A stretch of DNA of 64,000 nucleotides from contig NZ_CP007201.1 of NCBI RefSeq assembly GCF_000568815.1, positions 3,047,654-3,111,653 on the forward strand. Reading direction: 5' to 3'. Position numbers and translations under genes: made by a program. Each line of letters opens with the position of its first letter. Position 1 is the stretch's first letter. The notes under the pieces were generated by a model, which saw nothing but the letters and a program-made list of their open reading frames with translations, ran no database searches and was not told where the DNA came from. The DNA is from Sulfurospirillum multivorans DSM 12446 (GTDB lineage: Bacteria > Campylobacterota > Campylobacteria > Campylobacterales > Sulfurospirillaceae). This document shows positions 35,663 to 51,212 of the stretch, piece by piece.

Positions 35663-35790
35663 CGTCTTGCAAAACTAAGTTTGCAAGACGTAAAAAGCAC
35701 CAAAGGTGCGTGGGCATTCCGCCGAGGAAAACGCAGTGTTAACGTAGTCTTTTCACAGAAACTTCGTTTTGAGCTTTGCTTTAAAGACGT
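35663..35790. repeat. Intergenic repeat family 1, copy A
   Basis: The element contains a hairpin with 11-base arms CGTCTTGCAAA/TTTGCAAGACG, a second hairpin GCACCAAAGGTGC, then GTGGGCATTCCGCCGAGG, CAGTGTTAACGTAGTCTTT and GAGCTTTGCTTTAAAGACGT. The same blocks in the same order recur at 41179-41287. It has no coding potential of note and lies between convergent murB and tsaD. Confidence 0.85.
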
Positions 35791-35795
35791 GTAAA

Positions 35796-35813
35796 GAGTT
35801 CTGCAAAGAACTC
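35796..35813 (-). terminator. Hairpin at the tsaD stop codon
   Basis: GAGTTCT/AGAACTC with a 4-base loop overlaps the first base of the tsaD stop codon on the minus strand and is followed there by CTTTA. It is a weak terminator candidate. Confidence 0.4.
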
Positions 35814-41178: not shown

Positions 41179-41287
41179 TTCTTGCAAAATTCATTTTGCA
41201 AGAAGGTAGAGCACCAAAGGTGCGTGGGCATTCTGCCGAAGAAAACCCAGTGTTAACGTAGTCTTTAGAGCTTTGCTTTAAAGACGT
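41179..41287. repeat. Intergenic repeat family 1, copy B
   Basis: This element matches copy A (35663) in order: hairpin TTCTTGCAAAAT/ATTTTGCAAGAA, then AGCACCAAAGGTGCGTGGG, CATTCTGCCGAAG, CAGTGTTAACGTAGTCTTT and GAGCTTTGCTTTAAAGACGT. It lacks about 20 bases present in A between the last two blocks. The stem bases of the first hairpin differ from copy A yet still pair. It lies between divergent genes. Confidence 0.85.
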
Positions 41288-41322
41288 ATTAAGAATTCTA
41301 TATAAAAAGCAAAAGGTGCAGG

Positions 41323-48479: not shown

Positions 48480-48514
48480 AATACACTCCTCCTTTTTGGG
48501 CAAGTTGGGAAGGC

Positions 48515-48535
48515 TAAAAAAAGAGCTTTAGCTCT
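48515..48535 (-). terminator. Terminator candidate downstream of the NFACT gene
   Basis: On the minus strand AGAGCTAAAGCTCT (48522-48535) folds into a short hairpin and is followed by seven T. It separates the NFACT gene from the small acidic protein gene. Confidence 0.55.
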
Positions 48536-48551
48536 ACTCCTTATCTATTTT

Positions 48552-48623
48552 GATACGCTTCTTAGGCAAAGCCTAAGAACCTACGCTGCGTTATGCACTG
48601 AAGCTTGGCTCTACGAGCCAGAA
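48552..48623. repeat. Intergenic repeat family 2, copy 1
   Basis: The copy begins ATACGCTTCTTAGGC and contains the hairpins TTCTTAGGC/GCCTAAGAA (loop AAA) and GGCTC/GAGCC (loop TA with flanking). It matches the copy at 50005 over about 72 bases in block order. A further small hairpin CTTAAC/GTTAAG follows at about 48630-48646. Confidence 0.75.
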
Positions 48624-48649
48624 AACTTCTTAACGAAAAAGTTAAGCGT

Positions 48650-49984
48650 TTATTCCTTGTAAATTTTCAGCGTTTGATACTCTTCATAAGCAACATTCGC
48701 TCCATCAAAAGGTTTGACGTTTTTGCGTTTGGTATAATCGACCAAATAGCCACCTTTTTGAGTGAGGCTAAACTCAACGCACAGTTTTGCGGCAAATATC
48801 AAAACCGATTCTGGAACATTCTGTTTTTCGGTACAGATAATCACATGGGATGATGGCATATCTTTTACATGTAACCATATATCGTTCTTTTTCGCCTCTT
48901 GCAAGAGTGCAATGTTCCCTTTTTCATTTTTACCGAGCAAAATGCGATACCCCTCTAACAAAAAGGTCTCATAGAGATTGCTTTCATCGCCTTTTTGCTT
49001 TGATTTGCGCTGTTTTGGCACTAAAATCTGTATCTCTTCAGGATCACTCGCCGCGTTAATGACACCGACCATGCGCTCTAAAAAGAGTCGTTTCTCGTCT
49101 AAGTTCTCTTTTTGACGATGCACCGAGAGTGCTTTTTGACGCAATTTCTTTGACTTTTTAAACAGCAGATTCGCCGCCATTTGAGGCGTTTGCGCTTGGG
49201 GTAACACAATGGTAACAGCGTTGCCTTCAAAATCCTGTAATGTCACGCTCTCTTGATAACCTTTGATCATATTGGTATGCAAATGCGCCAAAACCAATGA
49301 TGCCTCTTTTTGCGCTTCATCACTTTTAAGCATCAACTCGGCTTCGTTTTCAAGCGCATCGATCGCTTGGGTGAGCTTCGTTATCTTTTTCTCCACCTGC
49401 GCGATTTTCTGTTTCTTGATCTCTTCGATCTTTACATGTAACCGTTTTTCGTAGGATAATTGAAGATACTCCTCAAGGGTTACGTTCAGGTCAAAAGGCT
49501 TCTCTTTAAGCTCTTTAGGCGGTAATTTTTCCAGTATTTCATTGACCTTGACACTGCGAAATGAAACACTCGCGTCAATATGCCGCATCGCCTCTAACAC
49601 CACTTCGTTTTCATCTAAAATGATCGCATTGGTATTGCGCCCCGTAAACTCTAACTGCAAGGTTGTGCGCATCGCCTTGTAACTCGAACTTGCCAACACG
49701 CCAATACGCCAAATACGATTCCCCTCTTCCACGTCCATCGACTCGATCTTCGCATTAGAAAATCGCTTAGCAAGCAAAACATCAAACGGTGCGGTATAAC
49801 GCTTCGCTTGTTTGAAATCTTCTTTAAAAAACATATACGAATCCCCACGCCCAAGGTCAACAAACAACGGCTCACCCGCTTCAAAAATAATGCGCAAAAC
49901 ACTGTCATCCACACGGTAAATCGATGAAATTTTATGGTATTGCTTTAAATAGTCATTAATACAAACAAGTTCTGCGTGTTTCAT
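48650..49984 (-). CDS. NFACT-family protein (RqcH/FbpA-like)
   Basis: This 444-residue protein resembles the NEMF/RqcH/FbpA family: an N-terminal NFACT-N domain (LKQYHKISSIYRVDDSVLR, LEFTGRNTNAII), a long central coiled coil (residues about 165-300) and the C-terminal NFACT-R domain (ETFLLEGYRILLGKNEKGN, DIWLHVKDMPSSHVII). Bacterial RqcH adds alanine tails to stalled nascent chains at the 50S subunit; some members bind fibronectin. The second ATG (49984) is chosen because AAAGAGA precedes it. The equivalent is Cj1349 beside cdsA-dxr. Confidence 0.88.
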   Translation of the reverse strand: MKHAELVCINDYLKQYHKISSIYRVDDSVLRIIFEAGEPLFVDLGRGDSYMFFKEDFKQAKRYTAPFDVLLAKRFSNAKIESMDVEEGNRIWRIGVLASSSYKAMRTTLQLEFTGRNTNAIILDENEVVLEAMRHIDASVSFRSVKVNEILEKLPPKELKEKPFDLNVTLEEYLQLSYEKRLHVKIEEIKKQKIAQVEKKITKLTQAIDALENEAELMLKSDEAQKEASLVLAHLHTNMIKGYQESVTLQDFEGNAVTIVLPQAQTPQMAANLLFKKSKKLRQKALSVHRQKENLDEKRLFLERMVGVINAASDPEEIQILVPKQRKSKQKGDESNLYETFLLEGYRILLGKNEKGNIALLQEAKKNDIWLHVKDMPSSHVIICTEKQNVPESVLIFAAKLCVEFSLTQKGGYLVDYTKRKNVKPFDGANVAYEEYQTLKIYKE

Positions 49985-50004
49985 ACATCTCTTTTTCATT
50001 TTTA

Positions 50005-50079
50005 ATACGCTTTATAGGCAAAGCCTAAAAAGCTACGTTAGCCACTATGGCGCTAAAGCTTGCCTCTTACGAGGCAGAA
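50005..50079. repeat. Intergenic repeat family 2, copy 2
   Basis: The copy contains TAGGC/GCCTA (loop AAA) and TGCCTC/GAGGCA (loop TTA or TTAC). It overlaps the 3' end of the glycerate kinase gene, so the last few codons (NSAS, stop) of that gene come from the repeat. Relative to copy 1 the second stem has one compensated base pair change. Confidence 0.75.
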
Positions 50080-51212
50080 TTTTTTATTAATTTTATAAGT
50101 CTAAATATCTCTTTCACACTCTGCTTGACAAGTTTTTCAGCTCTTGGTTTTTCCATCGCCTCTTCCAAACTCATCGGATAGCGCATAATGGAAAAAAGTG
50201 CGTCCACGCCTTCGTGCTCTTCCAATTCATCGGCAATGCCACCGCCTAAGGCGATGAGGGGCACGCCTGCTTTTTGAGCGCGTTTGGAGACGCCACTGAG
50301 CACTTTGCCCATTAAGGATTGCTGATCGATGCGCCCTTCTCCCGTGATAACGAGCGTTGCCTCTTTGAGGTGCGCAGCAAACCCGATTTGATCTAAAATA
50401 ATCTCAATGCCCGAACGAAGGGTCGCATCTAAAAAAGCTTGCATTCCGCCGCCCATTCCACCCGCCGCACCTGAGCCTGCGTTCATTGCCACATCTTTGC
50501 CCAGCGTGCTTTTAAGGACGTGCGTAAAATGCTTCATCCCCGCATCGAGGCGCTCGATCATGGCCGCGTCCGCGCCTTTTTGAGCCGCATAAATGTGCGC
50601 TGAACCACTGGGTCCAAACATGACGTTATCTACATCGCACGCGACGGTAAATTCACATGTTTTAAGCTCTAGTAACACACGGCTTTCATCCACATGATGC
50701 ACGCTCTCCAAAATCGCTCCACCAAGACCTAATTCATTGCCCGCTTCATCCAAAAAACGATACCCAAGCGCTTGAAGCATGCCAAGTGCCGCGTCATTGG
50801 TCGCACTGCCACCGATGCCGACGATAAATTTCCGACACCCTTTTGCAATGGCATCTTTCACCATCTCTCCCACACCAAAGGTTGTGGTCAAAAGCGGATT
50901 GCGTTTTTCTTTGGGAACGAGCGGAAGCCCCCCTGCTTGCGCCATTTCAATGACGGCGGTTATGCCATCCTCTAAAATACCATACTGCGCGCTGATCGGA
51001 TTCATCAACGGGTCATGGACTTTACATGTAACGATTTCTCCACGTACATTTTGCATGATCGCCGCTAACATTCCCTCTCCACCATCGGCGATATAACACG
51101 CAGTGACGCTTGCCTCTTGGTAAACCTCTTTAATGCCCTCTTCTATCCACGATGAGAGTTCCTGCGAACTCGCACACCCTTTAAATGAATCAATTGCTAA
51201 AACGACGTTCAT
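50067..51212 (-). CDS. Glycerate kinase (type 1)
   Basis: This 381-residue protein of the GarK/GlxK family phosphorylates D-glycerate (to 2-phosphoglycerate for this group). It has IDSFKGCASSQE, DGGEGM, the FIVGIGGSATND loop, GSGAAGGMGGG and ITGEGRIDQQS. The C-terminus runs into repeat family 2. It overlaps the ogt gene upstream by ATGA. Symbol left open because GarK and GlxK cannot be told apart here. Confidence 0.92.
   Translation of the reverse strand: MNVVLAIDSFKGCASSQELSSWIEEGIKEVYQEASVTACYIADGGEGMLAAIMQNVRGEIVTCKVHDPLMNPISAQYGILEDGITAVIEMAQAGGLPLVPKEKRNPLLTTTFGVGEMVKDAIAKGCRKFIVGIGGSATNDAALGMLQALGYRFLDEAGNELGLGGAILESVHHVDESRVLLELKTCEFTVACDVDNVMFGPSGSAHIYAAQKGADAAMIERLDAGMKHFTHVLKSTLGKDVAMNAGSGAAGGMGGGMQAFLDATLRSGIEIILDQIGFAAHLKEATLVITGEGRIDQQSLMGKVLSGVSKRAQKAGVPLIALGGGIADELEEHEGVDALFSIMRYPMSLEEAMEKPRAEKLVKQSVKEIFRLIKLIKNSAS

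Follow-up and report, generated by a model that had tools for sequence, protein, structure and literature searches.

Two similar intergenic repeats stand on either side of a single gene in Sulfurospirillum multivorans DSM 12446. They raise the question of whether the hairpins that they can form are preserved by selection and, if so, whether the structure is kept for the host mRNA or for the copying of the repeat itself. Both lie in a window of 64,000 nucleotides (contig NZ_CP007201.1, positions 3,047,654 to 3,111,653), and the coordinates of features below are those of this window unless a genome is named.

Two folded repeats around an NFACT-family gene

The gene between the repeats is an ORF of 449 aa on the minus strand (48650..49999), a putative member of the NFACT family judging from its sequence, and it is flanked by both copies as originally predicted. 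Copy 1 (48545..48623, minus strand; type 1 with a short middle hairpin) lies directly downstream of the NFACT stop codon. In cmsearch it scored 65.3 bits (E 2.3e-15) with R1, a covariance model built from 15 long-form copies, a training set that included copy 2 and not copy 1. Copy 2 (49997..50079, minus strand; type 1 with a long middle hairpin) scored 102.4 bits (E 3.2e-25) and, as the ORF ends show, is placed between the stop of the glycerate kinase ORF (50067-51212, minus strand) and the start of NFACT; the 3' end of the R1 match extends to the first ATG of the NFACT ORF. The two copies are direct repeats, and both are better read on the minus strand. On that strand each has the order UUC, hairpin B, AAGCUUYAGYG, hairpin C, UARCGUAG, stem D and CGU.

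The original prediction described a stem TAGGC-AAA-GCCTA common to both copies and a second stem, GGCTC/GAGCC in copy 1 and GCCTC/GAGGC in copy 2, in which a G-C pair had become C-G with pairing retained, and this is what the sequence holds. The first stem forms the upper part of stem D, which in copy 1 occupies 48580-48571 / 48567-48558 with AGGCUUUGCCU at its tip. The second is hairpin B, in which UGGCUC pairs with GAGCCA in copy 1 (48620-48615 / 48611-48606) and UGCCUC with GAGGCA in copy 2 (50076-50071 / 50066-50061). The loop of the latter contains the kinase stop codon TAA (50069-50067), so that the proposed overlap of copy 2 with the 3' end of glycerate kinase is also borne out. As a refinement, the two stems are separated by a third, short hairpin, and the first stem is closed by a conserved helix, ACG...CGT, that has a TAG bulge. 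By their folding alone the two copies stand out only slightly (minus strand, z -2.29 and -2.82; plus strand, z -2.94 and -3.03), and the case for the fold rests on the alignment of many copies. After copy 1 on the minus strand, AGAGCTAAAGCTCTTTTTTT (48512-48535) resembles an intrinsic terminator by eye.

Two relatives of a second type are present on the plus strand of the same window. The one at 41207..41299 scored 42.4 bits with R1 over 41231-41297 and 112.6 bits with R2 (3088860-3088952 of contig C1 in the S. multivorans genome, G000). Its 3' half is as in type 1 (AACGTAG, stem D, CGT) and its 5' half differs, consisting of a GCACC-AAA-GGTGC hairpin and a covarying hairpin with a GCCGA loop. 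The other (35717..35800) reached only 12.0 bits with R1 (E 0.33 alone), carries a 17-base insertion in stem D and lines up with a type-2 copy at the equivalent position in a sister species (G006, 2945364). Inserts of this form (CAnAGAAACTTCGTTTTG, 17-20 bases, itself a small hairpin) were seen in this copy and in three other loci (L059, L064, L054), and they occupy different stems or loops in several copies.

Covariation and distribution of the repeat family

Our strongest evidence that the fold matters, as the original prediction had argued from one exchanged pair, comes from aligned copies. In 15 copies, mostly from the S. multivorans genome, 96.7% of the cells of 22 pairs were paired, both sides had changed in 12 pairs and the covariation score was 0.479, as against 0.171 when shuffled and at most 0.117 when the partners were slid. 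With 89 copies from across genera of the Campylobacterota, 96.2% of pair cells were paired, both-side changes were found in 20 of the 22 pairs (382 such cells) and the score rose to 0.589, versus 0.175 for shuffles (none of 500 reached it) and at most 0.107 for slid partners. Seventeen type-2 copies (alignment A5, without copy L141 on account of its length) gave 98.3% paired cells and double changes in seven pairs. Shuffled controls ignore ancestry and slid controls keep it; alignment A4 was fitted to the structure of R1. The fold is under selection. An alignment of many copies with no further paired changes had been named as the result that would overturn the prediction, and we found the opposite.

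The same alignments bear on which strand folds. Among the 1902 pair cells of the 89-copy set there were 173 G-U and 17 A-C cells, and the corresponding counts were 23 and 3 in alignment A2 and 22 and 2 in alignment A5. The ACG/CGU helix alone contributed 79 of the G-U cells, and stem D alone gave 89 G-U versus 8 A-C. This excess of G-U over A-C indicates that the strand read here is the folding strand. Moreover, the 19 copies of the set that lie antisense to both neighbouring genes had 39 G-U and 4 A-C cells, which argues that the constraint concerns more than the mRNA of the operon.

The unit is about 80 bases long, with sharp borders (TCT ... CGTnntAAA) and three hairpins on one strand. Its unpaired segments AAGCTTTAGYG, AYAGY and TARCGTAG are constant and its stems change freely; the pattern used in our scan specifies the central part of the element, so that constancy there is partly a matter of how copies were selected, and stems B and D were not fixed. 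Type 2 is about 93 bases long and shares its 3' half with type 1. In its different 5' half, GCACC-AAA-GGTGC comes first and is followed by a hairpin whose stem has four covarying pairs and whose loop resembles GCCGA. A candidate pseudoknot, GGC/GCC, pairs in 98% of type-2 cells without covariation. Outside the unit, hairpins AATAGACTTCTTGC..GCAAGAAG and AGAGTTCTGCAAGAACTCT in the flanks of type-2 copies bracket many of them (for example at 41185-41206 and 41300-41310 in the window). They form an imperfect inverted repeat, and similar 5' hairpins accompany some Sulfurimonas copies. A palindrome, TTTACATGTAAA, recurs in the intergenic flanks of many loci (L021-L032, L129-L148).

Dispersed copies were first found by a DNA search of the S. 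multivorans genome (3,175,729 bases), which has 63 R1 matches at E<=1 with both architectures taken together; type 1 and near variants of it account for the top 27, and most of the others are of the second type. Within the genus, each of the 24 genomes contains matches to R1 (between 8 and 89 at E<=0.01, a count that includes type 2) and to R2 (between 5 and 69 at E<=1e-5). In a sample of the order, R1 matched in 43 of 149 genomes (E<=1e-3) and R2 in 41 of 149 (E<=1e-4), and in a sample of the phylum R1 matched in 40 of 298 (E<=1e-6). A pattern scan of bacterial and archaeal genomes returned at least 120 stretches; among the 80 matches listed, 79 carry Campylobacterota names and one is a 'Proteobacteria bacterium'. 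Tandem and nested copies exist. A gathering scan of the window against the 4227 families of Rfam 15 gave no match, a permissive scan of six loci gave two matches at chance level, and there was no phage match at the blastn level. The core pattern does occur in one IMG/VR viral contig (L290:1313-1340). No conserved promoter-like block was seen in the 45 bases upstream of 88 copies. We recognised no description of these repeats in the literature searched, and the Campylobacterota terms tried in a word search were absent from PMC8632094 and PMC11109978. This is a large, previously unlisted family of intergenic folded repeats in sulfur-metabolising Campylobacterota.

Turnover between genomes and placement relative to genes

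In a syntenic comparison of G000 with G006, 10 of 19 comparable sites were shared, two were filled only in G000 and six only in G006, and one held type 1 in G000 and type 2 in G006. The eight one-sided sites are unpolarised and may reflect gain or loss alike. The other genome is not cleanly empty at 558813 and 600560, where it carries another hairpin, and the match at 534363 is weak (E 0.065). The 19 sites were counted without five G000 matches at 1.01-1.05 Mb and without sites whose flank was missing or partial (430650, 432348, 3025173 and 3040143 in G000; 2921985 and 626287 in G006).

The pair flanking NFACT had been suspected of mobilising the gene between them. We find no support for this: the copies are two direct repeats out of 63 matches in the genome, and the gene stays put as the repeats turn over around it. 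At the 3' end of NFACT, a type 1 copy was present in 13 of 13 genomes read (12 intact, one truncated at its 5' end), in a set chosen by existing matches and therefore not a census; three further stretches were without NFACT. NFACT identity among the 13 falls as low as 68.7%, and persistence of a copy at this distance could mean that the host makes use of it. At the 5' end, type 1 was found in G000 and G004, a hybrid joining hairpin B to type 2 in G006, G011, G017 and G009, a decayed form of this hybrid in G012 and none within the 140 bases read in G016, G013, G002, G003 and G022; this end was not readable in G018. The hairpin B pair singled out in the original prediction is C-G in G009 and G-C in the other 11 aligned 3' copies.

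The last codons of NFACT recur beyond the element in G004 (L012/L397), G013 (L018), G016 (L017), G002 (L019), G018 (L400) and G003 (L402), where the element thus sits between two copies of the NFACT 3' end. Long target duplications, which these recurrences suggested for several species, proved not to be general: flanking direct repeats scoring at least 14 were found at 2 of 108 copies and 1 of 286 controls, and both copies are at multi-copy loci.

With regard to gene context, which was taken from an ORF caller rather than from annotation, none of the 62 placed copies of the S. multivorans genome lies inside a gene (match 3040142, without a usable locus, was left out). Of these copies, 24 are sense and 14 antisense in codirectional pairs, 14 are in divergent gaps and 10 in convergent gaps. 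For 68 pattern copies the figures were 35 sense and 18 antisense between codirectional genes, 9 convergent, 5 divergent and 1 undetermined, and for the 89-copy set, which overlaps with the former, 40 sense, 19 antisense, 10 convergent, 5 divergent, 14 at locus edges and 1 undetermined. When the 89-copy set and the S. multivorans genome were pooled, sense copies outnumbered antisense copies in codirectional gaps by 64 to 33 (p 0.002), a mild hint of effects on mRNA. The neighbouring genes are diverse and unrelated, and with both orientations and all four contexts represented the repeats have no stable orientation to genes. Copies often abut a stop codon or immediately precede a ribosome-binding site, and their 3' ends are often 19-30 bases from a start codon. 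All eight type-2 copies in divergent gaps are close to the gene to which they are sense.

What preserves the fold

We favor the possibility that these are composite, non-autonomous small mobile elements of the Campylobacterota in which selection sees the folded single strand, and we consider this probable. A trans-acting factor would copy or move the folded single strand of the element, be it DNA or RNA. Propagation would be restricted to copies that still fold, which would lead to compensatory change across the family, and copies inside operons would be harmless or mildly modulating hairpins in mRNA. Our reasoning is that antisense copies and turnover favor selection at the copying step, again as the probable case. 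The rival that we take most seriously is a structured UTR RNA that serves the host (as a processing site, an mRNA stabiliser or a site for an RNA-binding protein), is duplicated occasionally and is kept by host selection. Strong covariation around constant loops is typical of functional RNA, and the spacing of 3' ends ahead of start codons and the uniform placement of type-2 copies in divergent gaps also speak for such a role. Against it, in the 33 of 97 codirectional copies that are antisense the folding strand is absent from the operon transcript, and the antisense copies of the 89-copy set have the same G-U excess; furthermore, neighbouring genes are diverse and the sister species disagree at 8 of 19 sites. 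At the orthologous NFACT 3' site (12 genomes; alignment A6, without the truncated copy of G003), covariation was not clearly above that of shuffles, with 95.8% paired versus 95.1% shuffled (27/500) and one double change. The sense excess and the copy beside NFACT in many species keep this explanation alive, and we regard it as unlikely. The covarying stems around constant unpaired motifs are like those of the riboswitch and cis-regulatory families of Rfam 15; unlike those families, the repeats have no fixed orientation and no related gene class downstream, and no described family matched.

Movement by a known type of transposase was also considered. Were the repeats GTAG-tagged REPs or BIMEs moved by a REP-associated tyrosine transposase (RAYT), one would point to the unpaired GTAG directly before stem D (the TAG of CGTAG is unpaired in nearly all 89 copies by eye), which is the tag of a large REP superfamily in the part of PMC3733652 used here, where GTAG repeats in a Sulfurovum are also reported. 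A Y1 transposase gene was indeed found in 28 of 43 genomes with the element and in 39 of 106 without it (p 0.002, uncorrected for ancestry). We nevertheless think this very unlikely. When Y1_Tnp was searched for in the S. multivorans genome and in the order, the element was at none of 31 loci (E<=1; these are part of all Y1 genes found), which lends a RAYT link no support. The only Y1 gene of S. multivorans (L149:1462-2220) lies between inverted ends of its own, GGGGTCAGGGCTAAA; a Y1 gene is missing (E<=1e-5) from genomes that carry 27, 10, 9, 9 and 8 copies, and there was no replication-fork orientation bias (37/63, p 0.21, with the origin assumed at base 1). No mobilising enzyme emerged from these searches. 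Even less probable, in our view, is a MITE that depends on a DDE transposase and has its terminal inverted repeats beyond the conserved core. Non-coding, dispersed and present in many copies with presence/absence polymorphism, the repeats do resemble MITEs. AATAGA[C/G]TTCTTGCA and its complement bracket many type-2 and some type-1 copies in the genus as possible genus-specific outer inverted ends, and one insertion (G006, 766414) lies between 8-base TTTATATT direct repeats. On the other hand, the core ends TCTGCC / CGTnntAAA are not inverted, the flanks are uninformative across genera and, that single 8-base case apart, the 108 copies had no general excess of target-site duplications. Integron attC sites have RYYYAAC / GTTRRRY boxes at the ends of their fold; such boxes were not seen by eye at the core ends. 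The hallmarks of RAYT-REPs and of classical MITEs are thus mostly missing.

Returning to a composite element selected at copying, our best reading is that it works much as BOX, Correia and REP elements do. Correia elements, like ERIC and NIME repeats, are also small, intergenic and able to enter transcripts; they carry inverted ends of 26 bp, whereas the core described here has none. All three are named in the part of PMC3049150 used here. According to the same part of that paper, BOX elements of Streptococcus pneumoniae are also composite, small, interspersed and intergenic, are predicted to form hairpins if transcribed, insert into one another and show low recent mobility. Modules are recombined in our family too, since types 1 and 2 share a 3' half and hybrids occur at the NFACT 5' site. 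BOX has another sequence and host phylum, the comparison being one of descriptions, and is in excess between convergent genes, whereas the repeats studied here are mostly between codirectional genes (PMC3049150, in part); 'covar' and 'compensatory' are absent from the text of that paper. As for GTAG REPs and BIMEs, the part of PMC3733652 used here describes an unpaired GTAG beside a stem, many intergenic copies, frequent placement between codirectional genes and the supply of stop codons, all as in our family. However, those are single palindromes of 20-40 bases with one hairpin, as against about 80 bases, four helices and three hairpins here. Also unlike them, our repeats are absent from the scanned RAYT loci and vary in their stems within a genome as their unpaired parts stay constant. 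The Sulfurovum repeats of Di Nocera et al. 2013 (PMC3733652, compared in part and by text only) may overlap stem D of our family. A bolder version of our model, in which the family spread via folded ssDNA or RNA by an enzyme not yet linked to it, and copying selection rather than host function drove a selfish 80-base fold to evolve by compensation throughout the order, is one that we put forward as speculation and would not bet on.

Small intergenic repeats usually resemble decaying copies of a single consensus. Here the stems turn over as pairing and unpaired motifs persist across several families of the Campylobacterota, and the G-U excess reveals the folding strand; together, stem turnover and this strand signal make it testable whether structure is kept for the host mRNA or for the element's own copying. 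The observations fit a composite mobile repeat that may operate in the manner of BOX, with the twist that its stems evolve by compensation and its unpaired motifs are fixed. The earlier interpretation of the two NFACT copies is thus partly supported, and the observation behind it understated the case. For Sulfurospirillum, Sulfurimonas and Sulfuricurvum, tens of unannotated hairpins per genome bear on how operon expression is understood.
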